Below the pieces are notes generated by a model. That model saw only the letters and a list, made by a program, of their open reading frames with translations, ran no database searches and was not told the origin of the DNA. A stretch of 42,979 nucleotides of DNA from a virus: positions 1 to 42,979 of the IMG/VR virus record IMGVR_UViG_3300030333_006449; one strand, given 5' to 3'. The translations under genes were made by a program, and so were the position numbers. Positions 663 to 24,502 of the stretch are shown here, one piece after another; the first letter of the stretch is position 1; each line of letters begins with the position of its first letter.

Positions 663-3350
663 ATGAATAAAAAAATATTATATATCACACCTCATTTATC
701 TACTGGTGGCGCTCCTCAATATTTATTAAAAAAAATACAACTGTTAAAAAATCATTATAACATATTCGTTGTAGAATTTAATGATTATGGTATTTACAGA
801 GTCCAAAAAAATCAAATCATTGATCTACTAACAAACGGTTTGATCACTTTGGGTGAAGATAAATCAGAAATTTTAAATCATATAGAAAAAATAGATCCCG
901 ACATCATTCATTTTGAAGAAATGCCCGAATTATTTAATATTGATGATGAAATTACAAAAAAAATATATGTTTCTGATAGAAAATATAAAATTTTTGAAAC
1001 ATCTCATGATTCTTCTTTACATTATAATCAAAAAAGATTTATTCCTGATAAGTTTTTATTTTGTAGCGATAATCAAATTGTGAATTTTCGTAATCTTAAT
1101 GTTCCTGCATGTGTAATAGAATATCCCGTTTTAGATCATGAAAGAAGAGATAGGGAAGAAGGATTAAAAGCATTAAATTTAGATCCAACTTATAAACATG
1201 TGTTAAATGTTGGTCTCTTTACACCTAGAAAAAACCAAGCAGAAATATTTGAATATGCTAGAAAATTAGAAAAACATAAAATACAATTTCATTTTCTTGG
1301 AAATCAAGCACCAAATTTTAAAGATTATTGGGAACCTTTGATGAATGATAAACCAGAAAATTGTATTATTTGGGGTGAAAGAAATGATTCAGAAAAATTT
1401 TATTCATGCATGGATTTGTTTTTATTTACTTCTAAAGGGAATTCAGGTGATAAAGAAACTAATCCTTTAGTGATAAAAGAAGCACTGAGTTGGAAAATTC
1501 CTACATTAATTCATTGGATTGATTCTTATCAGGACAAATATGAAAAAAGAGTTGAATATTTAACTAATGATATTGATATTAACAAAATAAAAATTTTAAA
1601 AAAATTAAATTTAGATAGCGAAGACATTAATATATCCATTTCCGATGAAACAAAAGTCAATATTTATTATAGTGATGAATTTTTTGAAAAAAATAAAAAT
1701 AAATTGATTTGCATTTATGATTCAAAGTTTGACTTATGTATTCAAAGAAGTAGTGTTTTGGCTCCAGGTATGTTTATTCAAACATTTGCTTCTAAAAATG
1801 TTTTAAATGGTATTACAGTAAAAATTTTTGATGTACCTCATGATTATTTCTCTTCTCTGGATGTAGGCGAAGGAAAAATAAATGATCACAATTTGATATA
1901 TCAAAAAAGTTTTGATTTTAATAATATAGATTTTTCAATTAAAAATATTACATTTAAACCTCATGGTATTAAAGATGATCCTTCAGCATGGTTTACTTTT
2001 TATGAAGTTTTTCTTCAAGAAGTTTATAAAGATGTGAACATAACCGAAGATGATATTGTTTTAGATGTTGGTGGTCATTTTGGTTTTTTTAGTTTATATG
2101 CCATCAATAAAGGTGCAAAAAAAGTGCATGTTTTTGAACCAAGTATGGATAATTATAAAATATTGTGTCAGAACACAGGAAATTTTGAAGACATCATAAA
2201 ACATAATTTTGCAATTTCTGATAATAATGGACAAGATGAATTTATAGTTACAGGTCCTAGTGCAACAAATTCGTTTCATTCTAATTATAATCATTCTGAA
2301 GAAAATCATGTTTCAATGGGAAAAACAAAAAAAGAAAAAGTCAATATGATGACTTTGGATACCTTTTTAAAAAACAATAATTTATCTAGAGTTGATGTTT
2401 TAAAAATGGATTGTGAGGGTTCTGAATGGGATATTTTACCTAAAATATCAGATGATTTTTTTAAATACAAACTAAGAAAATTGACAATAGAATTGCATCA
2501 ATTTAATAATTCGGGATCTTTAGAAGATCATTATAAAAGATGTAAAGAATTTGAAGAGAGAATCATATCGTTAGGTTATCATGTAAATAGAGATCATCTA
2601 GAAAGTGATAAAATAGATCAAGATGGATTAGGTTCTTTAACAGCAACAAGATATCCTAAAATAAAAATAGTGCATATGTTGTGTGATATAAATGGAGAGA
2701 GAGAAAAACAAAGCATTAAACATTTACACAATTTGAGAGATTTTACTAATTGGACTTATGAACAATCGATTAATCAAAGATATCATGATATTCCACCAAA
2801 AGAAAATTGTGCTAGACCTGATGATGTACAATTAGAACCTGGCGATTATAAGTTAACTGGTCCACATTACGGTAATTTTTTGGCACATAAACGAGTTTTT
2901 GAAGAACATATGAATGATGACTATGATGCAGTTTTAATATGTGAATCTGATGCTATTTTTATTAAATCTCCACAAAAAGTTTTTAAAACAATAATTGACA
3001 TGTATGATGAAATGATGTATAATAATTTAAATTATATGTCATTCGGTAAACGCATACCTGATTGGCCGTATAAAGAATTTGAACATTTTGGTATTGCTAC
3101 GAGAATGTCAGAAGCACATTGTTATCTAGTTCCTTATAAACAAAAAGACTATTATTTGAATAAATTTAATACTTTGAAATGGGATGCTCTTGATTTATGG
3201 TATAATAACAATATTTTTAACGATAATAAATCAGGTATTGTAAAAAATCCTATTTCCATACAATGTTCAGGTGAATCTTATTTGGATAAAATTCATAAAG
3301 ATGGCACTACATTATTGAAAGAAGGAGATATTGAATATGAATTGCAATGA
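663..3350 (+). CDS. Three-domain glycosylation enzyme: GT-B glycosyltransferase, FkbM methyltransferase, GT25-like transferase
   Basis: This is an 895-residue fusion. Residues about 1-300 look like a GT-B (GT4-like) glycosyltransferase: an N-terminal TPHLSTGGAPQYLLKK stretch, then NVGLFTPRKNQ and LVIKEALSWKIPTL, the usual EA-x-(A/S)-x-G-x-P region. Residues about 430-660 match FkbM-family SAM-dependent methyltransferases, with the AdoMet loop VLDVGGHFGFFS (D468-G474) and VLKMDCEGSEWDIL (D583-W589). Residues about 670-895 resemble LPS-type GT25 transferases (GNFLAHKRVFEE, then LICESDAIF around E761-D763, which would be the metal-binding acidic motif). A beta-rich linker of unknown role sits at about 330-430. 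ATG with GGAG five bases upstream fixes the start. The gene is first in a cassette driven by the box at 635-642 and overlaps the next gene. The sugar and acceptor are unknown. Domain calls are from visible motifs. Confidence 0.82.
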   Translation: MNKKILYITPHLSTGGAPQYLLKKIQLLKNHYNIFVVEFNDYGIYRVQKNQIIDLLTNGLITLGEDKSEILNHIEKIDPDIIHFEEMPELFNIDDEITKKIYVSDRKYKIFETSHDSSLHYNQKRFIPDKFLFCSDNQIVNFRNLNVPACVIEYPVLDHERRDREEGLKALNLDPTYKHVLNVGLFTPRKNQAEIFEYARKLEKHKIQFHFLGNQAPNFKDYWEPLMNDKPENCIIWGERNDSEKFYSCMDLFLFTSKGNSGDKETNPLVIKEALSWKIPTLIHWIDSYQDKYEKRVEYLTNDIDINKIKILKKLNLDSEDINISISDETKVNIYYSDEFFEKNKNKLICIYDSKFDLCIQRSSVLAPGMFIQTFASKNVLNGITVKIFDVPHDYFSSLDVGEGKINDHNLIYQKSFDFNNIDFSIKNITFKPHGIKDDPSAWFTFYEVFLQEVYKDVNITEDDIVLDVGGHFGFFSLYAINKGAKKVHVFEPSMDNYKILCQNTGNFEDIIKHNFAISDNNGQDEFIVTGPSATNSFHSNYNHSEENHVSMGKTKKEKVNMMTLDTFLKNNNLSRVDVLKMDCEGSEWDILPKISDDFFKYKLRKLTIELHQFNNSGSLEDHYKRCKEFEERIISLGYHVNRDHLESDKIDQDGLGSLTATRYPKIKIVHMLCDINGEREKQSIKHLHNLRDFTNWTYEQSINQRYHDIPPKENCARPDDVQLEPGDYKLTGPHYGNFLAHKRVFEEHMNDDYDAVLICESDAIFIKSPQKVFKTIIDMYDEMMYNNLNYMSFGKRIPDWPYKEFEHFGIATRMSEAHCYLVPYKQKDYYLNKFNTLKWDALDLWYNNNIFNDNKSGIVKNPISIQCSGESYLDKIHKDGTTLLKEGDIEYELQ

Positions 3351-4398
3351 TTCAGTGGTTTTAATACATGCACATTTAAATAATGATGAGAAAAAAGATT
3401 TTTGCATTAATCTTATTAAAAAAATAAAATCATTTGGTTATGAAATAATTATAACCACTCATTGTCCTTTAGATAAGGATGTACAAAAATTAGTTGACTA
3501 TGCGATTTATGACAAAGATAATTTTATTTTTAATGATTATGATTTGTTAGGATATTTATATTTGAATACTAGTAGATTTTCAGTTCAATCTAAAGATTTT
3601 TGTTCATATAATACATACCCAGCCGTTCATAGATTGCTGAAATCTGGAGCAAACTATGCTAAAATGTTAAATAAAAAAATTATTCACATCATGGATTATG
3701 ATGTTAGCATAGATAATGATTTTTTATTGAAAGAAAACGAAAACACTATTTTGAAAAAAAATAAAAAAGGAGTTTTATATCAAAGATGGTGGATGGAGGG
3801 AATGCCAAATGACGCCAGACCTTTACAAATAACAACAAATATAATGTCTGTAGATGTCAATAGTTTTCATGAAATTTACAAAATATCTGAGATAGAAATT
3901 GCTGAAATGATGAGAACAACAAAATTTAAAATGGGCGAAGAAATTATCGGAAGACTTTTTGATTTAGAACATTATAAGCATTCTACAGATTATGTATTAC
4001 TAGATCTAGAAAAAGATGAGACAATTTTAAAATCAAATTTTTTGAAGGGGCAATTCGGACAGGCAGAGGATATGCCATGGATTTGTTTAATTGATAAGTG
4101 TAGAACTTCTACCGAAAATCACCACATTTTTTCTTATCAGCCTTCGGGTGAAAATTCAAAAAATATAAAAGTTATAATTGACGAAATGACTAAAAATCAA
4201 ACTTTGAATAAAGGCAATTGGTGTTTTTTTAAAATACCTGTTAATGCTAAAAATGTTAGTGTTTATGAAAATGATGTCTTGTTTAAACAATATGATTTAA
4301 CAAATGAATATGTGATGAAAAAAAATATTGAGATTACAAATTTCCAGCATACAACACCAGATACTAATATGAACGATGGGTATGGAGCAATATTGTGA
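3337..4398 (+). CDS. Putative glycosyltransferase with DxD motif
   Basis: I take ATG at 3337 as the start: AAGGAG at 3322-3327 lies nine bases upstream, whereas the in-frame TTG at 3331 would be only three bases from it. The product is 353 residues. It opens with a nucleotide-sugar-transferase-like strand (VVLIHAHLNNDEKK, then YEIIITTHCPL) and has an IIHIMDYDVSIDNDF segment with D120-x-D122, the expected metal/nucleotide-sugar motif of GT-A enzymes. The C-terminal 80 residues look like a separate beta-rich domain. The start lies inside the end of the upstream gene (14-base overlap), and the stop overlaps the next start as GTGA, so the three genes should be translationally coupled. It could equally be a non-catalytic glycan-binding partner. 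Family assignment is moderate. Confidence 0.68.
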   Translation: MNCNDSVVLIHAHLNNDEKKDFCINLIKKIKSFGYEIIITTHCPLDKDVQKLVDYAIYDKDNFIFNDYDLLGYLYLNTSRFSVQSKDFCSYNTYPAVHRLLKSGANYAKMLNKKIIHIMDYDVSIDNDFLLKENENTILKKNKKGVLYQRWWMEGMPNDARPLQITTNIMSVDVNSFHEIYKISEIEIAEMMRTTKFKMGEEIIGRLFDLEHYKHSTDYVLLDLEKDETILKSNFLKGQFGQAEDMPWICLIDKCRTSTENHHIFSYQPSGENSKNIKVIIDEMTKNQTLNKGNWCFFKIPVNAKNVSVYENDVLFKQYDLTNEYVMKKNIEITNFQHTTPDTNMNDGYGAIL

Positions 4399-7300
4399 AA
4401 AATAATATTTGCTATTTTGTTCATACATGTGATGATTATTCAAAATTTTGGGATGGTTGGTTTGATTCTTTTCAAAAATTTTGGCCAAAAGATTTGGATT
4501 GGAATGTATATTTTGTAAACGAAACTGATGAAATTTCTTTTTCTGATGATAGAATTAAACAATTAAAAACTTTTAAAACAAAAAAAGAGTATATTAAAGA
4601 AGAAAGACAATTTGATACTCAAGGAAATCCTTTTCCCGGATATGGTGGGATGAAACAATTTGATTATGGGTGGACTGATAGATTATTGAATGCACTAGAT
4701 CAAATTGAAGAAGAATATTTGTTATGGGTACAAGAAGATATGTGGTTAAAAACAAATGTAGATTCTAATTTGTTTGAAAATGCTTATCGTTTTGTGGAAA
4801 GAAATGATTTTAATGTATTAAGAATGCATAGGATAAATTCAATGTCTTCACCCTATCCGGATCATTATACTGAAACTGATTTATTTATTAATGATTATCG
4901 ATTGATAAAAATCAATAAAAATGCTGGTTATTTGATGAGTCATCAGCCATCAATATGGAAAAAATCTTTTCTCAAAGAGATACAAATACCAGGAGAAAGT
5001 TTTAGAGATAACGAATTTGAAGGAACAGAGAGAATTAGAAAATATGATGATCCAAAGATTTATCATTTGTTATATGATTGGTGTCATGGTGTTCCTGGTG
5101 CCGCAACTCAAGGAAATTTTCATACGTATAGTTATGAACAAGAAGCAATAGAGCATAAAAATGATCTTAAAATGTATGATGATTATCATATAAAAAGATC
5201 AAAATACACATATTCTGAAGATGAACTAAAACTATCACTGGTTACATCTTGTTATAATGCCGAAAATTATATTGATGAATTAGCAAATTCAGTTATAACA
5301 CAAAATTATCAAAATTGGGAATGGATAATAGCAGATGATTTTTCGACCGATGAAACATTACAAAAATTGAATAAGATTCAATCATTAGATAATAGAATAA
5401 AAATAGTTTATCCAAAGTTTAAAAAAGAAATTTGGTGGAATCCACAAATTCATGCAACTGGTGATATAGTATGTCATTTAGATTCAGATGATAAATTATT
5501 ACCAAATTGTTTTGATATGATAAATTATTATTTCAAAACTTTTCCTGAAGCGGTCTTATTACATTTTAATGCAAACAAATATCATGGATCTTTGCCAAAT
5601 TCTCATGAAAACATAACAGAAAATTTTAAAGATAATGTTTACATTTCTAAAGATAATGATTCTTTTTTAGAAGGTTTTGAGAGATTATGGTATTGGAGAA
5701 GTGGAATATTTGGTTATCTTAGAATTTTTAGAAATTTACCTGGTTTAAAATTTCCAGTGCATAAAGATGGTGATGCTTGTTCGTCTAATGATGGGCAATG
5801 GTTATTGATGTTAGAAGAAAGAGGCAAATGGTTAACTATACCCAGAACAGTTTATCTTGCTAGAGAACATGGAGACTCAGAAAATTTTAGAAATTGGAAT
5901 GCTAGGGGAGAAGCACAATTAGCAATAGATGCCAGAAAAAGAAGAAAAAATATTGTTTTAGATTATCCAAGAAATTTGAAATATTTTGACGATATTTATC
6001 ACTTTGCCGAATCCGTCTATATATCAACTTTAAATTGGTCCCAAGTTCCACAAAAAGTATCTTTTTTAAATTATAATCAAACATCAGAACAAGAAAATAA
6101 AGTCAAAAAATTATTTTTTGATCATGATGTAAATTTTAATTTATATTTAAATGAAATAGATTATTATTTTATTTTTATTGATTTAGACACAGACTCCGAT
6201 AAAATAAATTATATATTAGAGAAAATAAAATCATCCAAAAAAGAAAATACCGAGTTAATTTTCTTTTGTGATAATGTCAATTTACAAAAAAATAATAGAA
6301 CTGGTGAAGATTTTTTAGAATCAATTAGAAAGACTATAGAAAATCAAGGCATTAAATTTTATTTTTATGATCAATTTAACAGACATTATATATTAAATTT
6401 AAAAAATAAATTTGACTCCGTTCAAAATAACGAAAAAAAATCTGATCAAAATATTCAACTTTTAGAACATATTGAAGAAAAAAAGAAAGAAATAGAGAAA
6501 ATTTACGACACTAAAGAAAGGTTAAAAGTTTTACAAATTTTATTTGGTTTTGCTATTGAAGTTCCACCAAAAGGTTACGGTGGATTAGAAGAGGTAATGT
6601 ATCACTATTCTAGAATTGGCAAGAGTAGAAATCACATTATGGATTTTAAATTTTTGAGAGATGTCACTCAGAGAGATATTGAATACTATGATGTAATTCA
6701 TATACATTCTGGTAATTTTGGAAAAGACATGTATGATAGAAATATTCCTTATATTTTTACATTGCATGATACATGGGCTAAAGCAAATGGTAGAGACAAT
6801 CATTATTATAAAGAAAATATTAATTGTATAGATAAATCTTTATTTTCAATGATTCCTTCGTCTGATATGAAAGAATTTTTCGTAGAACAAAAAGATAAAT
6901 TAATTCATGTTGATCATGGCGTAGATACGAATTTTTTCTATCCTATGGTCGAAAAAGATTTATCTCAATTTAAAATTATTTGTGTCGGTGGAGGTTTTGA
7001 TCGTAAAGGGTTTCATCTTGCAATAGAAGTGGCAAATGATTTGAATTTACCAATAACAATTGTCGGTCCAGAACCAAGAGAAGATCCAGCAAATTTTTTA
7101 ACATATGAAATTTATGATGCGACAAAGCATAAAAATGATATTAAAATAGTTGGGGAATTATATAAAAATGATCTTAGAAATGCTTTGAATGAACATCACA
7201 TTTTAATTCATGCATCTTCTTTAGAATCAGGACAACCATGTTTAGCCGTGCTTGAAGCAATGAGTTGTGGATTACCATGTGTAGGAGTAATGCATGATAA

Positions 7301-8711
7301 CATAGAAGTTCCAGGTTTTTATAAATGTGAAAGGGATATCAATTCAATAAAAGATGGTGTTATAGAATTAATGAATAATTATGAATATTATTCAAGTGAT
7401 GCCAGAAATTTTGCACTTTCCAGGGATTGGGAAATTATGTTCAATAAAATGGAAGATTTATATTATCGGGCTAAAGAAATGAAAATTGATTTTCCGATAA
7501 ACATGAAAGAACGTCTAGTAGAAAATTATGAAAGGGATACGAACAAAATGATAACATTTGCTGGTGAAATAATCGACAACAGTATTAATGTCGATTTTAA
7601 AGAATTTCCAAAAGTCGAAATCATAGGTTCTCAAAATAAAAAATATGATGTAAGTTTTATAGATGATGATACTGGCGAAGTATTGTATTCAGCAGAAATA
7701 CAAAATAATAGTTGGTGTGGTTGTAATATAAAATACTTTGTTAACTGGAGAATTTTAATATTTGATAAAGAAACACATGAGCAATTATTAAATAAAAAAA
7801 TAAAATACGAAGATAAAAGAGTTTATGTTTGGTTTGATTCAAAATCTATTGGTGATACATTAGCATGGTTACCAGTTGTGGAAGAGTTTAGGAAAAAACA
7901 TAAATGTAAAGTTATCTGTAGTACATTTTTAACAAAAGAATTAGGATTTAATTTTTGGTATGATCAAATAGAATTTGTTGAACCTAATACTGGTTATGAC
8001 GATTTTGATTTTCAATACAGAATAGCATGGCTTGAAAAAGGAGAATATTCTCCTTATGATAGAAAAGAAGTTTCACTACAAGAAACATGTGCTGGTATTC
8101 TTGGACTGAAAGATTTTAAGGAAATCCAACCAAATGTCGTTGTTTATAAAGATTATCAAGAAAGAGCATTTAGTAAGCCTTATGTGACAATATCAACTCA
8201 AAGCACTGCACAAGCAAAATATTGGAATTATCCTGGAGGATGGGACAATGTGGTTGATTATATAAAAAATAAAGGTTTTGATGTTGTTTGTGTAGATAAA
8301 CATGAAGTGTATGGTATAGAAAAACATATGAACACAACTCCAAACAATGCTATAAAAAGACATGAAAGAAAGTTAGAAAATACGGTTGGAACTATGTGGA
8401 ATTCACATTTTCATATAGGATTAGGATCTGGACTATCGTGGCTTGCATGGGCATTAGGAAAAAAAGTAATTTTAATTTCAGGATTTAGTAAACCTTATTC
8501 TGAATTTGAAAATTGTGAACGTGTATTTGTTGATTCCGTATGTAACGGATGTTATAATCGTCATCAATTTGATGCTGGAGATTGGTTATGGTGCCCAGAT
8601 CATAAAGATACACCAAGAATGTTTGAATGTACTAAATCAATAACACCTGAAATGATATATGAAAGAATAGATAAAATCATCGATGAATTACCTAATCCAT
8701 TTGAAAAATAA
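4395..8711 (+). CDS. Giant four-domain glycosyltransferase ending in a TibC-like O-heptosyltransferase domain
   Basis: The product has 1438 residues from a GTG start with GGAG seven bases upstream. Domain 1 (about 1-260) is a GT-A-like fold with Q113-E114-D115. Domain 2 (about 278-520) is a GT2 transferase: LSLVTSCYNAENYIDE, then HLDSDDKLLPN with D363-S-D365-D366. Residues 540-700 form a linker ending in a Lys/Glu-rich coil. Domain 3 (about 708-1010) is GT4: GGLEEV near the start, VIHIHSGNFG, ICVGGGFDRKG and LEAMSCGLPCVG (E954). Domain 4 (about 1073-1438) closely matches the autotransporter strand-loop-strand heptosyltransferase (TibC) family: VWFDSKSIGDTLAWLP, STAQAKYWNYPGGW, GLGSGLSWLAWALGKKV, and a cysteine quartet C1383-x2-C1386, C1400, C1412 ending in ECTKSITPEMI, which in TibC holds an iron ion. 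The donor would be a heptose nucleotide by family analogy. The acceptor is unknown. Confidence 0.85.
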   Translation: MKNNICYFVHTCDDYSKFWDGWFDSFQKFWPKDLDWNVYFVNETDEISFSDDRIKQLKTFKTKKEYIKEERQFDTQGNPFPGYGGMKQFDYGWTDRLLNALDQIEEEYLLWVQEDMWLKTNVDSNLFENAYRFVERNDFNVLRMHRINSMSSPYPDHYTETDLFINDYRLIKINKNAGYLMSHQPSIWKKSFLKEIQIPGESFRDNEFEGTERIRKYDDPKIYHLLYDWCHGVPGAATQGNFHTYSYEQEAIEHKNDLKMYDDYHIKRSKYTYSEDELKLSLVTSCYNAENYIDELANSVITQNYQNWEWIIADDFSTDETLQKLNKIQSLDNRIKIVYPKFKKEIWWNPQIHATGDIVCHLDSDDKLLPNCFDMINYYFKTFPEAVLLHFNANKYHGSLPNSHENITENFKDNVYISKDNDSFLEGFERLWYWRSGIFGYLRIFRNLPGLKFPVHKDGDACSSNDGQWLLMLEERGKWLTIPRTVYLAREHGDSENFRNWNARGEAQLAIDARKRRKNIVLDYPRNLKYFDDIYHFAESVYISTLNWSQVPQKVSFLNYNQTSEQENKVKKLFFDHDVNFNLYLNEIDYYFIFIDLDTDSDKINYILEKIKSSKKENTELIFFCDNVNLQKNNRTGEDFLESIRKTIENQGIKFYFYDQFNRHYILNLKNKFDSVQNNEKKSDQNIQLLEHIEEKKKEIEKIYDTKERLKVLQILFGFAIEVPPKGYGGLEEVMYHYSRIGKSRNHIMDFKFLRDVTQRDIEYYDVIHIHSGNFGKDMYDRNIPYIFTLHDTWAKANGRDNHYYKENINCIDKSLFSMIPSSDMKEFFVEQKDKLIHVDHGVDTNFFYPMVEKDLSQFKIICVGGGFDRKGFHLAIEVANDLNLPITIVGPEPREDPANFLTYEIYDATKHKNDIKIVGELYKNDLRNALNEHHILIHASSLESGQPCLAVLEAMSCGLPCVGVMHDNIEVPGFYKCERDINSIKDGVIELMNNYEYYSSDARNFALSRDWEIMFNKMEDLYYRAKEMKIDFPINMKERLVENYERDTNKMITFAGEIIDNSINVDFKEFPKVEIIGSQNKKYDVSFIDDDTGEVLYSAEIQNNSWCGCNIKYFVNWRILIFDKETHEQLLNKKIKYEDKRVYVWFDSKSIGDTLAWLPVVEEFRKKHKCKVICSTFLTKELGFNFWYDQIEFVEPNTGYDDFDFQYRIAWLEKGEYSPYDRKEVSLQETCAGILGLKDFKEIQPNVVVYKDYQERAFSKPYVTISTQSTAQAKYWNYPGGWDNVVDYIKNKGFDVVCVDKHEVYGIEKHMNTTPNNAIKRHERKLENTVGTMWNSHFHIGLGSGLSWLAWALGKKVILISGFSKPYSEFENCERVFVDSVCNGCYNRHQFDAGDWLWCPDHKDTPRMFECTKSITPEMIYERIDKIIDELPNPFEK

Positions 8712-10468: not shown

Positions 10469-10493
10469 TAGCGGTGTCTTTGTGGCACCGCTA
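10469..10493. terminator. Bidirectional terminator-like hairpin between convergent genes
   Basis: Stem TAGCGGTGTC (10469-10478) pairs with GGCACCGCTA (10484-10493) over ten pairs with one T-G wobble and a five-base TTTGT loop. It is one of the most GC-rich short segments in the window. It lies eight bases after the gp32 stop, and its other arm contains the stop codon (10491-10493) of the convergent tape-measure gene. No clear U tract follows on either strand, so it may also act as an mRNA 3' end stabiliser. Confidence 0.7.
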
Positions 10494-12344
10494 AATTCCT
10501 AATGATTTCCCATAAGAAACAGTAGGACTTGAAAATGGCAATACTTCTTGTGTACTTTGAACGATTGCACTACTTTGGTTATTGTAATAATTAGCAGATG
10601 TTACAAATGATCCGCCTCCACCCATTTGAGGAGTTTTTAATAAATCGTTTTGCACAATTGCTTTTGCTAATTTTACGCCAATTGCATCTCCCATTCTATC
10701 TAATGGTATAACTGCTTCATTAGGATGTAATTGAAATAATCCTCTTTGAGTAGTAACACCACCAACTCTTAAACCTACATCTTTATCAATTAAATCTTGT
10801 TGATAACTTCTTTTTAGAAAAAGCAATCTGGCAAAAGAATGTTTGTTCACTTCATTAGCAGTAATTCCACCCAAAACATCACTTAAAATATCAACAACAT
10901 TTGTGTCTTTTTCGTATGTTGTTGATTTACCTGTCATTAAACTTTTGCCGGTCATTTCTTTTTTGGTATGATATGTATCGAAAAACATTCCTTCATCGAA
11001 TCTAAAAAGTCTTTCTAAATCTCCTAGTGTTTTTGCATTTGTTCCAAAAACTTTATTTACACTCCCCAATGCTTTTCTTGTAAGTTCATCATTAGCCGTG
11101 TTGACTGCATCTTGGATTACTGATTGATCACCACCAGCAAGAGCAGTGGCTTTTCCTGCTAATAGAGGTGCGTTTTGAGTATTAATTGGACCTACTTCTT
11201 TTATGAGTTTTTTTGTTTCTTCTTTTTGCATTTTATCTAATTGACTAATTTGTTGATTGGCGTCAGATTCACTAATTTTTCCTGCTCTTGCTTGTTGCGT
11301 AATATTTGATTTTTCAACTGCTGATTGAGCAACTTTTTTAGCAGATTTTTCTGCTTCCGATTCGGTTCCTAAAATAGATTTAACTGCTAATCCTAATGCC
11401 GCTCCAATTAAAGCACCTGCTATTATTCCTACTGGTCCACCTAATGCACCTAATGCGGCTCCAGTTTTAAACCCTGCCCATATTGCTAAACTTGTTCCCA
11501 ATGCACCTCCTAATACCATGGCAACAACATCTCCAAGTTTTAGTTCTTTATCATCACCAATAAAATAACCTGTAATAGCGCCCAATGCACCTCCGATTAA
11601 AGCACCTGGAACTAATCCTTTGATGCCAAAAGCACCAAAACCGAATCTTGCACCTAATGCGGCTCCACCGATTAATCCCAAACCCATTTTTTCAAGATCA
11701 GTATATTTTCTAGTAAATGCATTTTTTATTGAACCTTCGCCAGCCTCATCACCAAACAATGAAGAAAAAAGTCCAAATGCACCTGCTAACATTGCACCGG
11801 GAATTATTCCTTTTATGCCACCAACGGCAAATCCTAATATTGCTCCTTTACCAAGTTTTCCTAAAAAATCTTCTTTACCTAAAAATTCATCGAAAAATTT
11901 TGATGCACCAGACGTAAAATCTTTTTCTTTAAAAGATGATTCTAATGCTTTTAAAAACGATGGCCCTAAGAATAGAGCCGCAACTCCTCTTCCTAATGTG
12001 GCCATGCCTTTTAAACCAAAACTTCTTGGCATGAAACCAGGAAGACCCCCAGGTCCTAACAACATTTTTGATAAAAAACCAAACAATCCGCCGCTAGGCA
12101 AATCTAAAGAACCTGTTTTGGGTAAATTTAAAAGATTTTTTTTATCTTTTTTCTCTAATTCATTTTCCCTATCAGTTCTTTGTTTTTTCCTGTCAGATTT
12201 AATTAAATGACCTTTAATGTCACCTAATAATTTATTTGATGTATCTATCTTTTTTCCAAGGTCCGAAGACATCGCAGAATTCATCTCTTGTAGACCATCA
12301 ACTAAACTTTTAAATTGAGATTGTTTTATTTTTTTAACGGCCAT
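10491..12344 (-). CDS. 29: Tail tape-measure protein (gp29-like)
   Basis: The protein has 617 residues (T4 gp29: 590). It sets tail length and fills the tube before DNA release. Support: position directly downstream of the gp26/gp51 chaperone pair, as for tape measures generally; a polar, Lys-rich helical N-terminus (about 1-75); a long Gly/Ala-rich hydrophobic region (about 85-330) with repeated GALIGGALGAI-type segments that look membrane-active; a helical region with NITQQARAGKISESDAN; and a C-terminus with HPNEAVIPLDRMG (540-552), typical of tape-measure C-termini. The ATG at 12344 overlaps the gp51 stop by eleven bases and the ribosome binding site is weak, so coupling is likely. Its stop codon sits in the terminator hairpin. 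Name by position and features; I could not align it residue by residue to T4 gp29. Confidence 0.72.
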   Translation of the reverse strand: MAVKKIKQSQFKSLVDGLQEMNSAMSSDLGKKIDTSNKLLGDIKGHLIKSDRKKQRTDRENELEKKDKKNLLNLPKTGSLDLPSGGLFGFLSKMLLGPGGLPGFMPRSFGLKGMATLGRGVAALFLGPSFLKALESSFKEKDFTSGASKFFDEFLGKEDFLGKLGKGAILGFAVGGIKGIIPGAMLAGAFGLFSSLFGDEAGEGSIKNAFTRKYTDLEKMGLGLIGGAALGARFGFGAFGIKGLVPGALIGGALGAITGYFIGDDKELKLGDVVAMVLGGALGTSLAIWAGFKTGAALGALGGPVGIIAGALIGAALGLAVKSILGTESEAEKSAKKVAQSAVEKSNITQQARAGKISESDANQQISQLDKMQKEETKKLIKEVGPINTQNAPLLAGKATALAGGDQSVIQDAVNTANDELTRKALGSVNKVFGTNAKTLGDLERLFRFDEGMFFDTYHTKKEMTGKSLMTGKSTTYEKDTNVVDILSDVLGGITANEVNKHSFARLLFLKRSYQQDLIDKDVGLRVGGVTTQRGLFQLHPNEAVIPLDRMGDAIGVKLAKAIVQNDLLKTPQMGGGGSFVTSANYYNNQSSAIVQSTQEVLPFSSPTVSYGKSLGI

Positions 12345-12531
12345 GATTGTTCTTTTCTTGTTGTAATTTTTCGTTTTCTTCTTTTATATGATCTATTAAC
12401 ATTTGTACATAAATGTCTTTTTCAAATGGTATCATAGTATCTAACTCCGTCAAACTATATTTATGATGTTGCATTAAATTGAAGTTGGTCGTATAATAAT
12501 TGACCAAACTATTGTGACACAGGCTTATGAA
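12334..12531 (-). CDS. 51: gp51-like hub assembly catalyst, expressed as a -1 frameshift extension of gp26
   Basis: The reading frame is open from inside gp26 to TAA at 12334-12336. After a -1 slip the added 65 residues begin FISLCHNSLVNYYTTNFNLM and contain QHHKYSLTELDTMIPFEKD, then IYVQMLIDHIKEENEKLQQE, the pattern of the downstream half of tail-assembly chaperones placed before the tape measure. In T4, gp51 is a hub assembly catalyst encoded next to gp26. There is no good independent start: the in-frame ATG of FNLM has no Shine-Dalgarno sequence, and only a later ATG (before IPFEKD) has a GGAG, which would leave just 33 residues and cut the conserved part. The stop overlaps the tape-measure start by eleven bases. 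Coding status is strong, gp51 identity moderate. Confidence 0.75.
   Translation of the reverse strand, partial: FISLCHNSLVNYYTTNFNLMQHHKYSLTELDTMIPFEKDIYVQMLIDHIKEENEKLQQEKNNHGR
12485..12507 (-). other. Local hairpin downstream of the frameshift site
   Basis: In the mRNA, TTGGTC (12507-12502) can pair perfectly with GACCAA (12490-12485) around an eleven-base AU-rich loop. It starts 23 bases after the slippery heptamer, farther than the usual 5-9 base spacer, so on its own it is a weak candidate stimulator. It could stack on the longer pairing arm that precedes it. Confidence 0.4.
12512..12525 (-). repeat. 14-bp inverted repeat, downstream arm (after the gp26 stop)
   Basis: In the mRNA this reads AGCCTGTGTCACAA and begins with the last base of the gp26 stop codon, five bases after the slippery heptamer. 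It is perfectly complementary to the arm at 13283-13296 upstream of gp26. Half its bases are G or C, unusual here. The two arms exactly flank the gp26 gene. Confidence 0.85.
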
Positions 12532-13271
12532 AAAAAATCTTCAATTCCTTCTAGCAACAATTCTTCCTCTGTATTACATTTTGAGCATTTGAAACTATGT
12601 GTATATGTTAAATTAGGCATAGTTTTAAAAAAGTTTCTGACATTTTCAAATTGATCAGAATTTAAACTATTTAAAAAATCATGCATTTCTTGTTTCGAAT
12701 GTTCACGAGCATAAAAAATTTCTTCATCCTGATAAATGTAATCGATTGAGTTTACAATAATGTCAAAAATTGATTCGATAGTGTTTTCAGATGATCCTAT
12801 ATCATATAAATTTGACATTTCATTGTAAATTTCCATGGTAGGATATTTCATCTGTAATCCAATCTTATCATTAATTTTTATTTGAACATTATGCGTATTA
12901 TCGGATTTAGGAGAAATTTTTGATATATCAATCTTAATTTTTTCGCTTCCGTCACATTCTTGTTCTTTTTTGTTTTTACCGTTCGGATGTCTTAATGTAA
13001 CTTCAACAATTTCTCCTACAGATTTTGCTCTTAATTGTAAAAAAATATGTTGCACATCAAACATCGGTAAAGTATCAACATTTATATCAGATAACAAACA
13101 GTTTTCTATGATTTGTTTCATAGTTAAAACCATTTCTCTTTCATTTTTACTCTCTAATGCCATGAGTAATAACTTTTCTTCTTTAACTAAAAAAGGTCTA
13201 AATTTTATTTTTTGGTTATTCGAAGTTAGAGTCATTTCATGTACAGGAGTATCAACTCTAGGTAACCCCAT
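12525..13271 (-). CDS. 26: Baseplate hub/tail-assembly chaperone gp26
   Basis: The protein has 248 residues (T4 gp26: 208) from ATG 13271, with AAAAGGAA just upstream. It starts MGLPRVDTPVHEMTLTSNNQ, then KIKFRPFLVKEEKLLLMA and TMKQIIENCLL, a pattern typical of the T4-like baseplate gp26 family. Residues 224-248 contain a CSKC (C229, C232) followed by EEELLLEGIEDFFS. I see only this one CxxC, so a complete zinc site is not evident. In T4, gp26 takes part in hub assembly. Its place immediately before gp51 and the tape measure parallels lambda gpG. About two codons before the stop lies a slippery T run, so a minority product of about 312 residues (gp26-gp51) is predicted. Both flanks carry a 14-bp inverted repeat. 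Confidence 0.82.
   Translation of the reverse strand: MGLPRVDTPVHEMTLTSNNQKIKFRPFLVKEEKLLLMALESKNEREMVLTMKQIIENCLLSDINVDTLPMFDVQHIFLQLRAKSVGEIVEVTLRHPNGKNKKEQECDGSEKIKIDISKISPKSDNTHNVQIKINDKIGLQMKYPTMEIYNEMSNLYDIGSSENTIESIFDIIVNSIDYIYQDEEIFYAREHSKQEMHDFLNSLNSDQFENVRNFFKTMPNLTYTHSFKCSKCNTEEELLLEGIEDFFS
12530..12537 (-). promoter_or_regulatory. Programmed -1 ribosomal frameshift site (T8 run, slippery T-TTT-TTT)
   Basis: The gp26 frame ends GAT TTT TTT TCA TAA. The in-frame heptamer T-TTT-TTT fits the X-XXY-YYZ slippery rule, so both tRNAs can re-pair after a one-base back-step. The -1 frame then reads TTC ATA AGC CTG and stays open for 65 codons as gp51. The site lies two codons before the zero-frame stop. 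RNA polymerase slippage on the eight-base run, or a missing base in the assembly, would give the same fusion. Confidence 0.72.
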
Positions 13272-13306: not shown

Positions 13307-13885
13307 TTATGTTAATAATTCTGGACCTGACCCAACTGAGGCCAAATCAGAACTAGTCACTGAATCATCTTCACCAATATTCCAATTTCTATATGCAAAT
13401 GTAACAGGTAATCTTGCATAATCACTATTTTGATTTTGAGCAAGATTGATTACACCTACATTTAATGGAAAAACTTCATTAAAATTAACTATATACTGTT
13501 TATTGTTAAAATCATCAAATACTGTAACTCTCATATCACAAACAACATCGTTATAATATGATACATCATGTGAATCCGAAGGATTGATAATTTCTTGCCA
13601 TCCATCAAAAAATCTTTTTTCTTGCATACCTCTATTAGTACAAATAAATGTCAAAGTTGTTTCGACATAAATTGATGCATATGGAATTTTACGAACAGGA
13701 CCATAAATTTTTGTATCTTGAGTTGCCAAACTTCTTCCAGGTAATTCTGCTTGTTCAACAAAAAAACTCAAATCTCTAGGTACTGATAATGGCGGTGCAT
13801 CAAAACGTACTTCAAATCTATTTACGGGTGTTGGACCTAAATTTGTATCTAATCTTCTTTTAAATTCTTCTATGTTTAAAGGCAT
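13307..13885 (-). CDS. Tail-tube-fold protein (gp19/gp54-like tube or tube initiator)
   Basis: The protein has 192 residues. The ATG at 13885 shares one base with the previous stop (TAATG), with AGGAG nine bases upstream. The sequence shows the signature of the myovirus tail-tube fold: NRFEVRFDAPP, FFVEQAELPGRSLA, YASIYVETTLTFICTNRGMQ, FFDGWQEII, then DMRVTVFDDFNNKQYIVNFN, VFPLNVGVINL and LPVTFAYRNW. This pattern is shared by tube protein gp19 (T4: 163 residues) and by tube initiator gp54 (T4: 320 residues), which ends similarly in TFDVTFAYR. Its place among hub genes (next to gp26) rather than next to a sheath gene argues for an initiator or hub-tube adapter. The fold is fairly sure, the exact equivalent is not. 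Confidence 0.68.
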   Translation of the reverse strand: MPLNIEEFKRRLDTNLGPTPVNRFEVRFDAPPLSVPRDLSFFVEQAELPGRSLATQDTKIYGPVRKIPYASIYVETTLTFICTNRGMQEKRFFDGWQEIINPSDSHDVSYYNDVVCDMRVTVFDDFNNKQYIVNFNEVFPLNVGVINLAQNQNSDYARLPVTFAYRNWNIGEDDSVTSSDLASVGSGPELLT

Positions 13886-14936: not shown

Positions 14937-15833
14937 ATGTCACAAGCAGAAAGAAAATTACAACAAATAGCAAATGTTAGACAGGGTTTTATGCATAAAT
15001 TCCCTTTCAATTTAGGATCTAGTGCGGATCAACCCGAGTCTAAGAAATTTTGTATATTTAAATTTAAAGAAAGAGATTCTAAAAAATTTCAATTAAAAGG
15101 CTTCATTGCTTTACCAATGCCTGAGGTTAATGAAGGATTAAACGTAAAATATGCACAATCAGAATTAGGAGTTGTTGGTGCAGGATTGGTTGGAGGTGTT
15201 GGTGCAAATGATATGTCAAATCTTAATGGAATCACCGATGCTTTATTGTCAGGTATTAGATCATATAATACAGAGACATTTTCAAGAGTATTATCGGACA
15301 TGGCATTAAAATCTTCACCTGGTCTTAGAAATTCTATCACTAAGGGATTAGGAACAGTACAGAATAATTACTTAACGAATGCATTTGATAGTATTGGTTT
15401 TAGAGAATTTTCATTTTCGTTTAAATTAAATCCTACTCGTTCTGAAGAATCTGAATCTATCAGAGATATCATTTCTCAATTTAAAAGATCGATGATGCCT
15501 GAAAGTATCTTGAAAGAAAACCCAGAAAATAAAGAAATACCTGGTCCAGATACAGGAATACAAAAAATACCGGATAGATTAGATGTTGATTTTTTTCCTA
15601 CAACGAATAATTATGGGACTATTGATACTTTGAATAATATGGTTAAAATTAGAAATGCAGTCATTACAAATTTCGAAGTGGAATATTCTGAGGGTACAAT
15701 AAATCCAACATTTTTTGAAGCAGATCAACAAGGTAATCATGCACCATTTACTGTTAATTTTACAGTTGCATTAAAAGAAACAACCGTCTATACGAAAGAA
15801 AGATGTGAAGAAGATTACAGAGGAACAAATTAA
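14937..15833 (+). CDS. Baseplate tail-tube cap protein, gp48-like paralogue
   Basis: The protein has 298 residues. The start follows AGGAG by about seven bases. It begins MSQAERKLQQIANVRQGFMH, then KFQLKGFIALPMPEVNEGLN. A Gly-rich stretch (about 75-90, GVVGAGLVGGVGAND) precedes REFSFSFKLNPTRSEESESI and RDIISQFKRSMMPE (about 155-185). This region, a beta strand followed by (T/P)-R/N-x2-(E/Q)-(S/E)-x-(S/N)-I-x2-I-I, parallels the T4 gp48 segment VFTWDLTPRSTEDLMAIINI and the equivalent part of the next gene. I therefore read it as one of two tandem gp48-family proteins that cap the hub and start the tube. Its stop shares one base with the next start. It could instead be the functional equivalent of gp54. 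Confidence 0.62.
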   Translation: MSQAERKLQQIANVRQGFMHKFPFNLGSSADQPESKKFCIFKFKERDSKKFQLKGFIALPMPEVNEGLNVKYAQSELGVVGAGLVGGVGANDMSNLNGITDALLSGIRSYNTETFSRVLSDMALKSSPGLRNSITKGLGTVQNNYLTNAFDSIGFREFSFSFKLNPTRSEESESIRDIISQFKRSMMPESILKENPENKEIPGPDTGIQKIPDRLDVDFFPTTNNYGTIDTLNNMVKIRNAVITNFEVEYSEGTINPTFFEADQQGNHAPFTVNFTVALKETTVYTKERCEEDYRGTN

Positions 15834-17011
15834 TGGATCCTGAACAAAAATTAAATAGATTGGGTCAATCACAAAGAAATTTTAGATATCCTACTGAAGT
15901 TGCACAAGAAGGTGTCAGTCATTTTATGTTAATAAAGGAATTGAAATTTAATAAACCTAAAAGAAATGATGATCCGATTATTAACAGAGAAGTTAAAGAT
16001 GGATTAACAAATTTTAATGAGTTTATAGGAGCATCTGGTGAGAATGGTTTATATTCATTAGTAAGAAGTTTTGCCTTATATCTTCCTCCAGGAGCAATCA
16101 AAACAAGTTATCAAGCAGAGCATGATGAAGTGGATATAGGATTTTTTGGAGAAGTTTTTTCGCAAAATGTTCAAGAATTTACTGAAGATTTGTCTACGTC
16201 ATTCGATCAATTTAGACAATCTGATGCAACTGCTAGTGACACATTAGATTTTTATAGAAATGTTTCAGACGTTCCCAATAGATTAGCCAATCAGGGTATT
16301 GATCAGATTGTTGGTGTTGGTAAAGATTTAGCGAACAATGGTTTAGCAAGTCAAAATCAAGGAGTTCAATTTTTAAAACAAAATGTTTTAAGTGCAATCG
16401 GGGGTTTAGCATCTTTAGCATCTCCTGGAAAAACATCTGGAGAACAAATAGCATCTATATCGATGAAAAAAACAAGAAATAGATTCGCATCTCTTATTTT
16501 TACGGGTATAAAAAAATTAAGACAACATAATTTTACATTTGAATTTTATCCCAAAAATGCACAAGAATCTCAAAATATTCAGTCAATTATAAAAAGTTTA
16601 AAATTAGGGATGTTACCAAGTTTGAAAAAATTTAATGGATCTGATCAAATAACATTTAACTACAAAACAAAAGAAGATGATACTATTGATTCTGATCATT
16701 TAAAAAGTAGTCCATTGCAACCTGAACCATCTCCAGCACAAAAGCAAAAAACTTATGATGTTTCTAATGGTATGAATTCATTATTTTTTGATTATCCTAA
16801 TGTTTATACAATTACTTTTTATGATACTTCAGGTGAAAATACAGGAAATCCATATTTGTACAAAATCGGTCAATCTGTTTTAGAATCTTTAAAAGTAAAA
16901 TATAACCAAAACTATTTTTCTGAAAATGGGGCACCAACTGGAATAAATTTACAGTTATCTTTTAAAGAAAACTTTGCCCTTAATCGTCAATTAGTAGAAA
17001 GTGGATATTAA
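15833..17011 (+). CDS. 48: Baseplate tail-tube cap protein gp48
   Basis: The protein has 392 residues (T4 gp48: 364). The ATG has AGAGGA eight bases upstream and overlaps the upstream stop by one base. Features: SHFMLIKELKFNKPKR near the N-terminus, SFALYLPPGAIKTSYQAEHD (about 82-101), a helix-rich Gln/Asn middle, and SLIFTGIKKLRQHNFTFEFY followed by PKNAQESQNIQSIIKSLKLG MLPS (about 217-262), which matches the T4 gp48 pattern of a beta strand and a helix ending the tube-fold. The C-terminus (ESLKVKYNQNYFSENGAPTG, then LQLSFKENFALNRQLV) resembles the T4 ending with FTLEITMREIITLNR. The stop overlaps the gp53 start by one base. In T4 gp48 caps the hub and, with gp54, nucleates tube polymerisation. 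Confidence 0.75.
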   Translation: MDPEQKLNRLGQSQRNFRYPTEVAQEGVSHFMLIKELKFNKPKRNDDPIINREVKDGLTNFNEFIGASGENGLYSLVRSFALYLPPGAIKTSYQAEHDEVDIGFFGEVFSQNVQEFTEDLSTSFDQFRQSDATASDTLDFYRNVSDVPNRLANQGIDQIVGVGKDLANNGLASQNQGVQFLKQNVLSAIGGLASLASPGKTSGEQIASISMKKTRNRFASLIFTGIKKLRQHNFTFEFYPKNAQESQNIQSIIKSLKLGMLPSLKKFNGSDQITFNYKTKEDDTIDSDHLKSSPLQPEPSPAQKQKTYDVSNGMNSLFFDYPNVYTITFYDTSGENTGNPYLYKIGQSVLESLKVKYNQNYFSENGAPTGINLQLSFKENFALNRQLVESGY

Positions 17012-21268: not shown

Positions 21269-21438
21269 AGAAAAAAGATGATAAAATAGTTTTTGAAGAA
21301 ACTACAATGCGTAATCAATCTATGATAGATCTATTGGAAAAAACAATGAATTTTAATAATGATTTAATTAAAATTTTTCAAAATAAAAAAGATGAATACA
21401 CAAAAATTTTAAATTCTATAAAAGAAAAAAATGGCTGA
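21265..21438 (+). CDS. Small hypothetical protein, 57 residues
   Basis: The ATG at 21265 overlaps the gp5 stop as ATGA, and the TGA at 21436-21438 overlaps the next gene's ATG (21431) by eight bases. That double overlap is the main evidence that it is real. The product is MKKKDDKIVFEETTMRNQSM, then IDLLEKTMNFNNDLIKIFQN and KKDEYTKILNSIKEKNG: charged, mostly helical (about 15-55), with no membrane segment or cysteine. I do not recognise it. A short helical protein between the spike and a large baseplate protein could be an assembly factor or a spike-tip partner, but this is conjecture. Confidence 0.7.
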   Translation: MKKKDDKIVFEETTMRNQSMIDLLEKTMNFNNDLIKIFQNKKDEYTKILNSIKEKNG

Positions 21439-24400
21439 TCAAATATATTTTGAACAAAATGATAAATTATATTTGGTTAATAATCCAGCCATTGAATCTT
21501 TTGTCAATGCAACTAAACAATTAGGTGTAAATGTTTCAGGCATAGCCACAAGTTTATCCGTATTTTTCAAACAAACTAAAATTTTTTTAGAAGCATTAAA
21601 TGACCCACTTGCTAGTGCTTTAATTCCTCTCTTAAATAGTTTAATTGCTCAACTTGAAGATGCTAAAAATATTGGTGCTGGTTTTTTAACTGTTTGGCCT
21701 TGGGAATGCGGAACATTGCCGAGAGGCGTTGATCCTAGCAAATTGCAAAAAGGTTTACTATCATTAGCATCGGCTGTTTCTAGATCTAATCCTGATAATA
21801 TACGCTTTGATGCTGAAACTGGTGAGTTTTTTACTTTTGAAAATGACAGTGAAAATAATACGGTAAGAGTTCCTAGTGTAGATCAAATCAGAGCAAAACC
21901 AGAAAATACTAACTTATCACCAAAGACAAGAGAAACTATATTAAGTGCATTAAGCGGCGTAATGGACTATACTTTTCCTGAAACATGGAGATCAGAATTC
22001 CCAGAAGCCACAAAAATAGCATTAGGAATATATGATACATTTCCATCAAAAAGAGAGTTAACACCTAGTCAAGTAGTTGAAAAAATTGTTGATTCATTAA
22101 AAGATCAAAATGATCAAATGAAACCTTATGGAACAGGAAGTTATATTGCTGATGTTTATATATTTGCATTTCCTTCATTTACTGGACTAACTGACGTTTT
22201 AAATAATATCATGGATTATTTTGGTGGTTTATTAGAAAATGAGGCTCTTCAAGGATATTTGAGAGAATCCGAAACAACTAAAGATGTTGAAATCGATTTA
22301 GGTAAACCAGCAATATTAAAAAGTAGTTTTTTCATTAATGATGCTGATGAGAGACTTATAAAAGATGGTGAATATAAAACGGGAAATGTTGATATTCCTA
22401 TGTTTTCTCCAGGTGATATCGTAGTTCAAGGTGATACATCACTTGTGAATTTTAAAGCAGAAGTTGTAGAACATCAACCAATTATTATTAAAGATGCTCA
22501 AGTTTTATCTAATAGAATAAAAATTAGAAATATTAGTGGAGAATATAAACCAACTTCATTTATCAATGGATCCGTAAAAAGCACAGGAATTATTAGAAGA
22601 TTAGGAAAGTCTGATACTGAAAATTCAAATTTATCTAGTGTTCCTTGTTTTTTTCCAGAAAATAATTTGAAACCAACATTAGTACAAAGAAAAAATTTAA
22701 CATTTACAGCCGACATACAACAAGGTGATGTTGTATTAAAAAATGTTTTGCCTCTTTCGGAATCAAAAGCAATGTCTAAATTTAGGGCAGGTGGTTTAGA
22801 TTCGTATACCGATAATACCATTTTGGATGATAAAGAGTTTCAGAGTGAAATGATTGAGTTTGTACAAAAAATGAAAATTGGTTCAATTATTAGAAATCCT
22901 TTTTTGAAAAATTTTTGGGATGTCAATAGCACAGGCGATTTATATGATAAGGTTTTGAAAAATGAAAAATATCCTGATATTAATTACGGTAAATTATTTG
23001 AACTTTTGCCCGATTTTGGAATAAGTTATCACGTAGCAGATATTACTATAGGTGGTAAATCTATAAGTAATGTAACTTTAAAGGATGATCTATTTATAAA
23101 AAATGAAAAAAATCCTAAAAAAATATTTACTGAAAAAATGAGTCCAATCAATATTGTATTGGGAAGATTGTCTGATAAAAATCAATTTAGTACAGACGGT
23201 CTGGCACCTTTCATCAATCCACCTTCAGGTGTTACTACATTCGATACAAATTTATCTACTTTTAATGTTTTTACGTCTGACAATGGTGAATTGCCTAATT
23301 GGAATTTTTTAAGAATACAAGATATATTTCCAGATTATGGCGAAATGATTGATTCAATTATAGATTTTGTAGAAGGTGTAAAAAGTTATGTTGAAAGTAG
23401 TTCAAAAATATTAGAGGGATTAATTAATTTATTAGATAAAATCATTGAAGAAATAGATGATTTAAATAAACGTATACAAAGATTTTTAAAATTTTTGGCA
23501 TCAGGTTTTAATGCAGTTGGATTATATCATTTACATTTAGATGGCACTGGAGGTGTAAAAGATTTTGAGAAAAAACTAAAATCTGCACAATTTAAAATAA
23601 CTAATCCAAATCCATTTCCTGAAATTATTTTAGAAACTGTAACAGAAACAAAAACACAAAAAAATCCTACAACTGGTTTGACTGAGACTTTTGAAATTCA
23701 AAGATTGAAGCCAACAGTTAAAACGAAAGATAAAGATGAAGTGGAGCCTCAAATAGTTTCTATTAACGAATTGGACTCTTTGAAATATTCTGGTGGTCTA
23801 GTTTTATACGCTCAAGATAGAGATAAAGAATTGTATGAACAGTTTTCTAAGTTGTTAGGTGTAGTTGAATCTTATGGTGAAAATTTATTATCATTCGCTC
23901 AAGGAAAAGAATCAAATTTAGTCAAGGATTTAGAACCAAAACTAGAAAAAGTACAAATTCAAGACATAGATGGAAATTTTGTAGATGTTGGATCCGCTGA
24001 TGCAAAATCAGATACACTTATTAGACTAGTAATAAAAAATAATTCTATTAAATACAATGCTTTTGAAAAAAATAATTTTAATGAGGCTCAAAGTAGACAA
24101 ATAAACTATTCACCTCAAATTAATGTAAGCGGTATAAAAATAACAACTGATAAACCTGCTGATGGTGCAATTTTTAATTCTTCAGAAGATGATGTTTCAT
24201 TGTTTTTAGGTAATGATGTTTCAGATAATAATGGTTTTTTTAGACTTTCTAGTATACCATCATCGTCTGAAGAATCTATACAAATAAATTCTGGTGATGA
24301 ATTGAAAATAGATTATACAATTAATTTAGATTTTACACCGAGTTCACCCCTTCCATCAACGATTGGTCAATCTTCTCAATATAGATTAAGAGTGAAAAAT

Positions 24401-24502
24401 TTAACATCATTTGAACGATTGATTATGGATGAAACGCTCACCGCCGGTTTTGATGTATTACCTACAACCATTTCAGATGTAGAGTTCGATAATGGCGTAT
24501 AA
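21431..24502 (+). CDS. Large conserved baseplate-operon protein of unknown function, 1023 residues
   Basis: The gene lies between gp5 and gp25, where marine T4-like phages carry large structural proteins. The N-terminal 110 residues are helical (ESFVNATKQLGVNVSGIATS, FFKQTKIFLEALNDPL, LLNSLIAQLEDAKNIGAG), followed by FLTVWPWECGTLPRGVDPSK. A helical hairpin occurs at about 635-700 (MIDSIIDFVEGVKSYVESSS, LLDKIIEEIDDLNKRIQRFL), with HLHLDGTGG soon after. The C-terminal 150 residues are beta-rich and end in an Ig-like stretch (KIDYTINLDFTPSSPLPSTI, YRLRVKNLTSFER). No enzyme motif is visible. There is no Shine-Dalgarno sequence, so it is probably translated by coupling to the 57-residue gene. It overlaps the next gene by eleven bases. 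I do not know a T4 counterpart. Confidence 0.75.
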   Translation: MADQIYFEQNDKLYLVNNPAIESFVNATKQLGVNVSGIATSLSVFFKQTKIFLEALNDPLASALIPLLNSLIAQLEDAKNIGAGFLTVWPWECGTLPRGVDPSKLQKGLLSLASAVSRSNPDNIRFDAETGEFFTFENDSENNTVRVPSVDQIRAKPENTNLSPKTRETILSALSGVMDYTFPETWRSEFPEATKIALGIYDTFPSKRELTPSQVVEKIVDSLKDQNDQMKPYGTGSYIADVYIFAFPSFTGLTDVLNNIMDYFGGLLENEALQGYLRESETTKDVEIDLGKPAILKSSFFINDADERLIKDGEYKTGNVDIPMFSPGDIVVQGDTSLVNFKAEVVEHQPIIIKDAQVLSNRIKIRNISGEYKPTSFINGSVKSTGIIRRLGKSDTENSNLSSVPCFFPENNLKPTLVQRKNLTFTADIQQGDVVLKNVLPLSESKAMSKFRAGGLDSYTDNTILDDKEFQSEMIEFVQKMKIGSIIRNPFLKNFWDVNSTGDLYDKVLKNEKYPDINYGKLFELLPDFGISYHVADITIGGKSISNVTLKDDLFIKNEKNPKKIFTEKMSPINIVLGRLSDKNQFSTDGLAPFINPPSGVTTFDTNLSTFNVFTSDNGELPNWNFLRIQDIFPDYGEMIDSIIDFVEGVKSYVESSSKILEGLINLLDKIIEEIDDLNKRIQRFLKFLASGFNAVGLYHLHLDGTGGVKDFEKKLKSAQFKITNPNPFPEIILETVTETKTQKNPTTGLTETFEIQRLKPTVKTKDKDEVEPQIVSINELDSLKYSGGLVLYAQDRDKELYEQFSKLLGVVESYGENLLSFAQGKESNLVKDLEPKLEKVQIQDIDGNFVDVGSADAKSDTLIRLVIKNNSIKYNAFEKNNFNEAQSRQINYSPQINVSGIKITTDKPADGAIFNSSEDDVSLFLGNDVSDNNGFFRLSSIPSSSEESIQINSGDELKIDYTINLDFTPSSPLPSTIGQSSQYRLRVKNLTSFERLIMDETLTAGFDVLPTTISDVEFDNGV

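Follow-up and report, generated by a model that had tools for sequence, protein, structure and literature searches.

gp26 and gp51 of marine T4-like phages as one tail assembly chaperone gene with a predicted -1 frameshift

In the T4-like phage record analyzed here, the gp51 reading frame opens at the very end of gp26, raising the question of whether the two are separate genes or parts of a single one. The window is the entire IMG/VR record (42,979 bases), which may itself be a fragment. Its minus strand carries, in order, genes for a gp4-like head closure protein, a gp2-like DNA end protector, a gp19-like tail tube protein (13307..13885; phrog_45, E=2e-32), gp26 (12525..13271; 248 aa) and a presumed tape measure of 617 aa (10491..12344), placing gp26 between tail tube and tape measure as expected for a G/GT-type chaperone. 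Family PF12322 covers residues 10-247 of the 248 in gp26 (E=1.4e-57) and therefore spans it as a whole-length domain, and the protein also matches phrog_150 (E=7e-63). We consider it very likely that gp26-gp51 is one tail assembly chaperone (TAC) gene with two products, the short TAC-N (gp26, the lambda gpG analogue) and the longer TAC-NC, which would be made by a -1 slip on T TTT TTT. Frameshifting at this junction is a prediction drawn from sequence.

The first-pass annotation had located the junction directly upstream of the tape measure. The position is right, and the identity of the downstream gene is presumed from that position, from glycine-zipper segments and from a weak PHROG match (phrog_2335, E=1e-4); the label is tentative because blastp of the window protein against the HTVC008M tape measure gave no significant match. 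HTVC008M has an additional 110-aa ORF between gp51 and its annotated tape measure (L002, 3403-3735) that is absent from the window. Elsewhere, the plus strand of the window encodes a methyltransferase-domain protein (663-3350; phrog_8156) and, at 4395-8711, a protein of 1438 aa whose GtrB-like match is weak, both preceding genes for a helicase loader and a single-strand binding protein. Two adjoining plus-strand genes (14937-15833 and 15833-17011) each match the baseplate tail tube cap family phrog_230 and are probably gp48 and gp54. Two very large plus-strand ORFs (21431-24502, 1023 aa; 24492-28283, 1263 aa) lie between the genes for a gp5-like tail lysozyme and a baseplate wedge protein; neither matched PHROG at E<=0.001.

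On the minus strand, gp26 ends GAA GAT TTT TTT TCA TAA, as previously noted, with the in-frame heptamer T TTT TTT (12537..12531) lying in a run of eight T one sense codon 5' of the TAA stop (12527..12525). Begun on the last T of the heptamer, the post-slip -1 frame reads TTC ATA AGC CTG ... CAT GGC CGT TAA, remains open across the gp26 stop for 65 codons (12334..12531) and overlaps the ATG of the next gene by 11 nt. Its product, the C-terminal part of TAC-NC and analogue of lambda T, matches phrog_634 (‘baseplate hub assembly catalyst’, gp51; E=1.6e-27) over profile positions 59-118 of 121, that is, in the second half only. It also matches, weakly, the far C-terminal end of phrog_150, the gp26 family (239-278 of 282), which gave the first hint that gp26 and gp51 are parts of one protein. 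The claim that gp51 has no adequate start of its own was likewise borne out, as the first ATG of the frame (12474) lies 3' of a conserved NYYxTNF segment and the sole start-like codon before it, a TTG at 12507, has no Shine-Dalgarno sequence.

A profile scan of IMG/VR recovered 80 related loci, compared with a single locus from an earlier single-protein scan. All 80 have T TTT TTC or T TTT TTT at the junction; two read GAT TTT TTT TTA, which holds T TTT TTA as well, and two others carry the heptamer with the 0-frame stop about ten codons farther on. Where contig ends do not interrupt it, the -1 extension is open in every case (61-82 codons), and alignment of the junctions showed both the T run and the open -1 frame to be conserved. 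Across 84 loci the -1 frame shares the motif NYYxTNFxLMQHHKYSLTELxxMxPxERDIY, in its fuller form NYYxTNFxLMQHHKYSLTELENMxPWERDIYxxLL. The heptamer is also found in the isolates HTVC008M, P-SSM2, Syn1, S-N03, S-CRM01, KVP40, phiM7, Marzo, AS-zj and LPCS28 and in the single-cell contig AG-345-O18; the predicted slip-spanning product of P-SSM2 contains the stretch ...GLQSFFRISMAHEDLESYYK....

Homopolymer runs are error-prone and T4 gp51 is a continuous frame, so the T run could in principle be an assembly or sequencing error that splits one continuous gp26-gp51 frame in two. This reading is exceedingly improbable: the same frame relation recurs across 80 further contigs as well as finished isolate genomes, where T TTT TTC, with its final C, is not purely a homopolymer. 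For the window sequence itself, error is excluded because two independent contigs (L010 and L012) share its GAT TTT TTT TCR TRA junction and frame relation.

The heptamer also stands out against the codon usage of the same genes. Among 19,202 other codon positions of gp26, only 25 hold an in-frame T TTT TT., whereas every relative has it at the junction. The first Phe codon of the slip is TTT in 82/82 loci (74% among the remaining gp26 Phe codons), and the codon preceding it ends in T in 82/82 (71% among Ser/Asn/Asp codons). After removal of loci with more than 80% identity the heptamer was kept in 63/63. Joint probabilities are not quoted because the loci are related, but TTT use and the T-ending preceding codon, both above background, indicate that the heptamer is more than a consequence of a Phe-Phe end.

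Ackermannviridae phages (Limestone, Ag3, A8-29 and Kuja) and the similar phage K369 have only the shorter NTT TTC or CTT TTT, and in them too the -1 frame is open. In these loci (L006, L092, L094, L095 and L096) the full heptamer is absent and the open frame carries a common MPWHL-like motif; such junctions may slip on a shorter site or rely on reinitiation. The Limestone annotation gives its gp26 as a confirmed structural protein, which would not fit a chaperone absent from the virion.

Where translation of gp51 begins bears directly on whether it could be a separate small protein, made by termination and reinitiation near the gp26 stop, with the T run merely encoding a Phe-Phe end. The public annotations that list gp51 as its own gene are in keeping with this, as are the 34 of 84 marine loci in which an ATG precedes the conserved Tyr pair and the TRATG stop/start overlaps at the junctions of KVP40 (L005, 3316), Limestone (L006, 3307), Marzo (L008, 3262) and S-CRM01 (L099, 3205). 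However, in 25 of the 84 the stretch from the slip to the NF closing the NYY..NF segment contains no ATG, GTG or TTG, and AS-zj and LPCS28 have no ATG start ahead of the conserved segment. A check for relatives that lack the run and start gp51 separately did not refute the frameshift, as all 80 kept the heptamer. Upstream of NF, substitutions favour third positions of the -1 frame (0.47, and 0.48 among loci without a start, where 0.33 would be expected in the absence of selection), which together with the start-less loci indicates that this frame is read as protein from near the slip onwards. Since, moreover, the TTT and its preceding T are kept in all loci, a Shine-Dalgarno (SD)-like element lies near the slip rather than near a start, and T4 gp51 and phrog_150 show both parts joined, we regard a purely reinitiated gp51 as very unlikely.

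A variant of the frameshift explanation concerns the relatives and not the window: frameshifting would make TAC-NC in all of these phages, and reinitiation would add free gp51 where an ATG just follows the stop, as the TRATG overlaps allow. In KVP40, Marzo, S-CRM01, P-SSM2 and Syn1 the heptamer is indeed accompanied by TRATG or a nearby ATG. Yet this ATG often simply encodes a Met within a variable stretch, residues 3-8 past the slip, and many loci lack it, as does the window; such dual expression is rather unlikely.

The predicted slip may be aided by elements on either side of the heptamer. In the window, an SD-like AGGA (12546..12549, minus strand) lies 8 nt 5' of the heptamer as a putative stimulator, close to the slip and too distant from any gp51 start to serve initiation. 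SD-like 4-mers (GGAG/GAGG/AGGA) peak at -15 to -12 from the heptamer, reaching 56% of 63 dereplicated loci compared with 0.7% elsewhere. The -1 frameshift of Escherichia coli dnaX is stimulated by an SD-like element about 10 nt upstream. The conserved Glu-Gly at this position is written GAG GG., with GAG in 43 of 67 Glu codons against a background of 20-22% in the gp26 body and 28% where Glu-Gly occurs in long open frames; this enrichment is weaker in loci without a start codon (6/13, p=0.04).

Downstream, the 45 nt after the heptamer fold more stably than shuffled sequences (mean z -0.93, 24% below -2), the most extreme value of 38 offsets, and the excess begins right after the heptamer but is strong in some lineages only. 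Clear hairpins were seen, for instance, in P-SSM2 (GTATGGCTCA...TGAGTCATAC) and in locus L001 (GGTTAAGT...ACTTAACC), and the window's own candidate, TTGGTC..GACCAA (12485..12507, minus strand), is weak (z=-0.8, not significant alone). No fixed-column helix stood out among 68 dereplicated relatives, and we therefore claim a lineage-dependent folding excess and not a general pseudoknot or hairpin. A divergent pair of loci (L062, 128-880; L085, 1875-2627) extends the -1 frame further, to 82 and 79 codons, and has very stable hairpins immediately 3' of the heptamer (z -2.9 and -4.1).

Taken together, the conserved heptamer, open -1 frame, start-less loci, SD-like peak and folding excess point to gp26 as TAC-N and gp26-gp51 as TAC-NC. 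Most ribosomes would stop at the gp26 TAA and release TAC-N, while a fraction would slip by -1 on T TTT TTT and continue into gp51, probably aided by the SD-like element 5' of the heptamer and, in certain lineages, by a hairpin 3' of it. On the model of lambda gpG/gpGT, many copies of TAC-N and few of TAC-NC would coat the tape measure, and the gp51 part would recruit tail tube subunits. An AlphaFold2 model of gp26 was confident (pLDDT 86.5), and its top PDB fold match was the HK97 tail assembly chaperone 2OB9; at E=0.84 (TM 0.23/0.44) this match is not significant and thus serves as a hint only. Matches of the model in BFVD were other gp26-like baseplate hub proteins, and a gp26 profile found no match among the sequences of solved structures.

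Comparison with T4 clarifies how the two parts relate. T4 gp26 (208 aa) and gp51 (249 aa) are both full-length PF12322 proteins (E=9e-64 and 4e-52), and of the pair only gp51 matches phrog_634 and the phrog_150 end; carrying both PF12322 and the extension, it encodes the long form in one frame. The 3' end of T4 gp26 (GAG TTC TTT GAG TTA CTA TAA) lacks the heptamer and its -1 frame has stops, so T4 uses two paralogues and not a frameshift. The proposal in the first-pass annotation that gp26 and gp51 act as a G and G-T pair is supported, with the qualification that T4 gp51 does not correspond to the short downstream frame, the 249-aa protein matching the whole frameshift product instead. The T4 arrangement of separate short and long paralogues was not found in the window, where a search for a second PF12322 copy in the 43-kb record, possibly a fragment, returned one match only.

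With T4 gp51 as query, tblastn matched 1,334 phage records at >=80% coverage. In a tree of 37 N-domains, the root of which is not fixed and in which KP15 gp26 forms a long branch, the gp26 and gp51 copies of T4, RB49, KP15 and Konradin grouped beyond a well-supported branch (99/97), apart from the 29 single-copy rows. This topology fits a single duplication in the T4/RB49/KP15/Konradin branch, with the frameshift being older. We lean slightly towards a scenario in which one TAC gene with a -1 frameshift and an SD-like stimulator at fixed distance was ancestral across the T4-like supergroup (Kyanoviridae, Emdodecavirus, Menderavirus and KVP40-, AS-zj- and LPCS28-type Straboviridae) and was replaced once, by duplication, in the branch of T4, RB49, KP15 and Konradin, where gp26 would have lost the slip site and gp51 frozen the long form. 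If true, ancestral frameshifting followed by a single switch would amount to a natural experiment, indicating that tail assembly needs the two forms and not the frameshift itself. The need for a fixed short-to-long ratio would be testable in T4, whose two genes can be varied separately.

At the level of sequence, what is annotated in marine T4-like phages as ‘baseplate hub subunit gp26’ and as ‘baseplate hub assembly catalyst gp51’ is thus best read as one tail assembly chaperone gene, from which it follows that many cyanophage and pelagiphage records annotate a separate gp51 with a start it does not have. The annotated gp51 start in HTVC008M and Syn1, for example, removes conserved residues. 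The depositors of phage Konradin name its gp26 and gp51 ‘tape measure protein assembly chaperone’.

Xu, Hendrix and Duda (2004) are said to have described the conserved G/GT frameshift of long-tailed phages, and Vladimirov, Gautam and Davidson (2022, Virology 566:9) reportedly identified the tail assembly chaperones of T4-like phages, including T4 gp26/gp51. A passage of the review PMC5009743 describes this frameshift as conserved in long-tailed phages ‘except T4’. Vladimirov et al. is cited in passages of PMC10885494 for T4-like phages with one short and one long gene and of PMC12846349 for poly-T slip sites in T4-like TAC-N genes. Given the review, these citations and the Konradin naming, the kind of system is already known, and on the strength of those passages the presence of a frameshifted TAC in T4-like phages probably is too; the first-pass annotation had left its novelty for this group open, and Vladimirov et al. 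and the later papers citing it appear to have addressed the point. The system type itself is textbook, and the locus provides a convincing further example and an annotation correction; the SD-like stimulator and the one-time switch to two genes may lack an earlier description.

Among known systems, lambda gpG/gpGT similarly pairs a short chaperone with a rare -1 extended form; the coding region sits between those for tail tube and tape measure, and the slip falls close to where the first frame ends. The slip here is T TTT TTY with an SD-like element, however, and the likeness rests on arrangement; the window phage, moreover, is T4-like, although T4 is the exception named in that passage of PMC5009743. 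The TACs of Vandenendeviridae and Andersonviridae, as described in a passage of PMC12846349, also show a -1 frameshift from TAC-N into a downstream frame before the tape measure, but use a GTTTTT motif and belong to other phage families, and they too are likened by arrangement. The gp26/gp51 loci of the Kyanoviridae (P-SSM2, Syn1, HTVC008M and S-CRM01) share the gene order, heptamer and -1 extension, whereas their public records give two genes with gp51 begun at its own ATG. T4 gp26 and gp51 belong to the same PF12322 family as the window protein, and the small gp51 domain likewise forms the C-terminal end of T4 gp51, but T4 has two genes for the two forms where the window has one gene that would produce both by the predicted frameshift. 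The ‘except T4’ exception thereby becomes a comparison, between a predicted frameshift in most T4-like lineages and two paralogues in T4.
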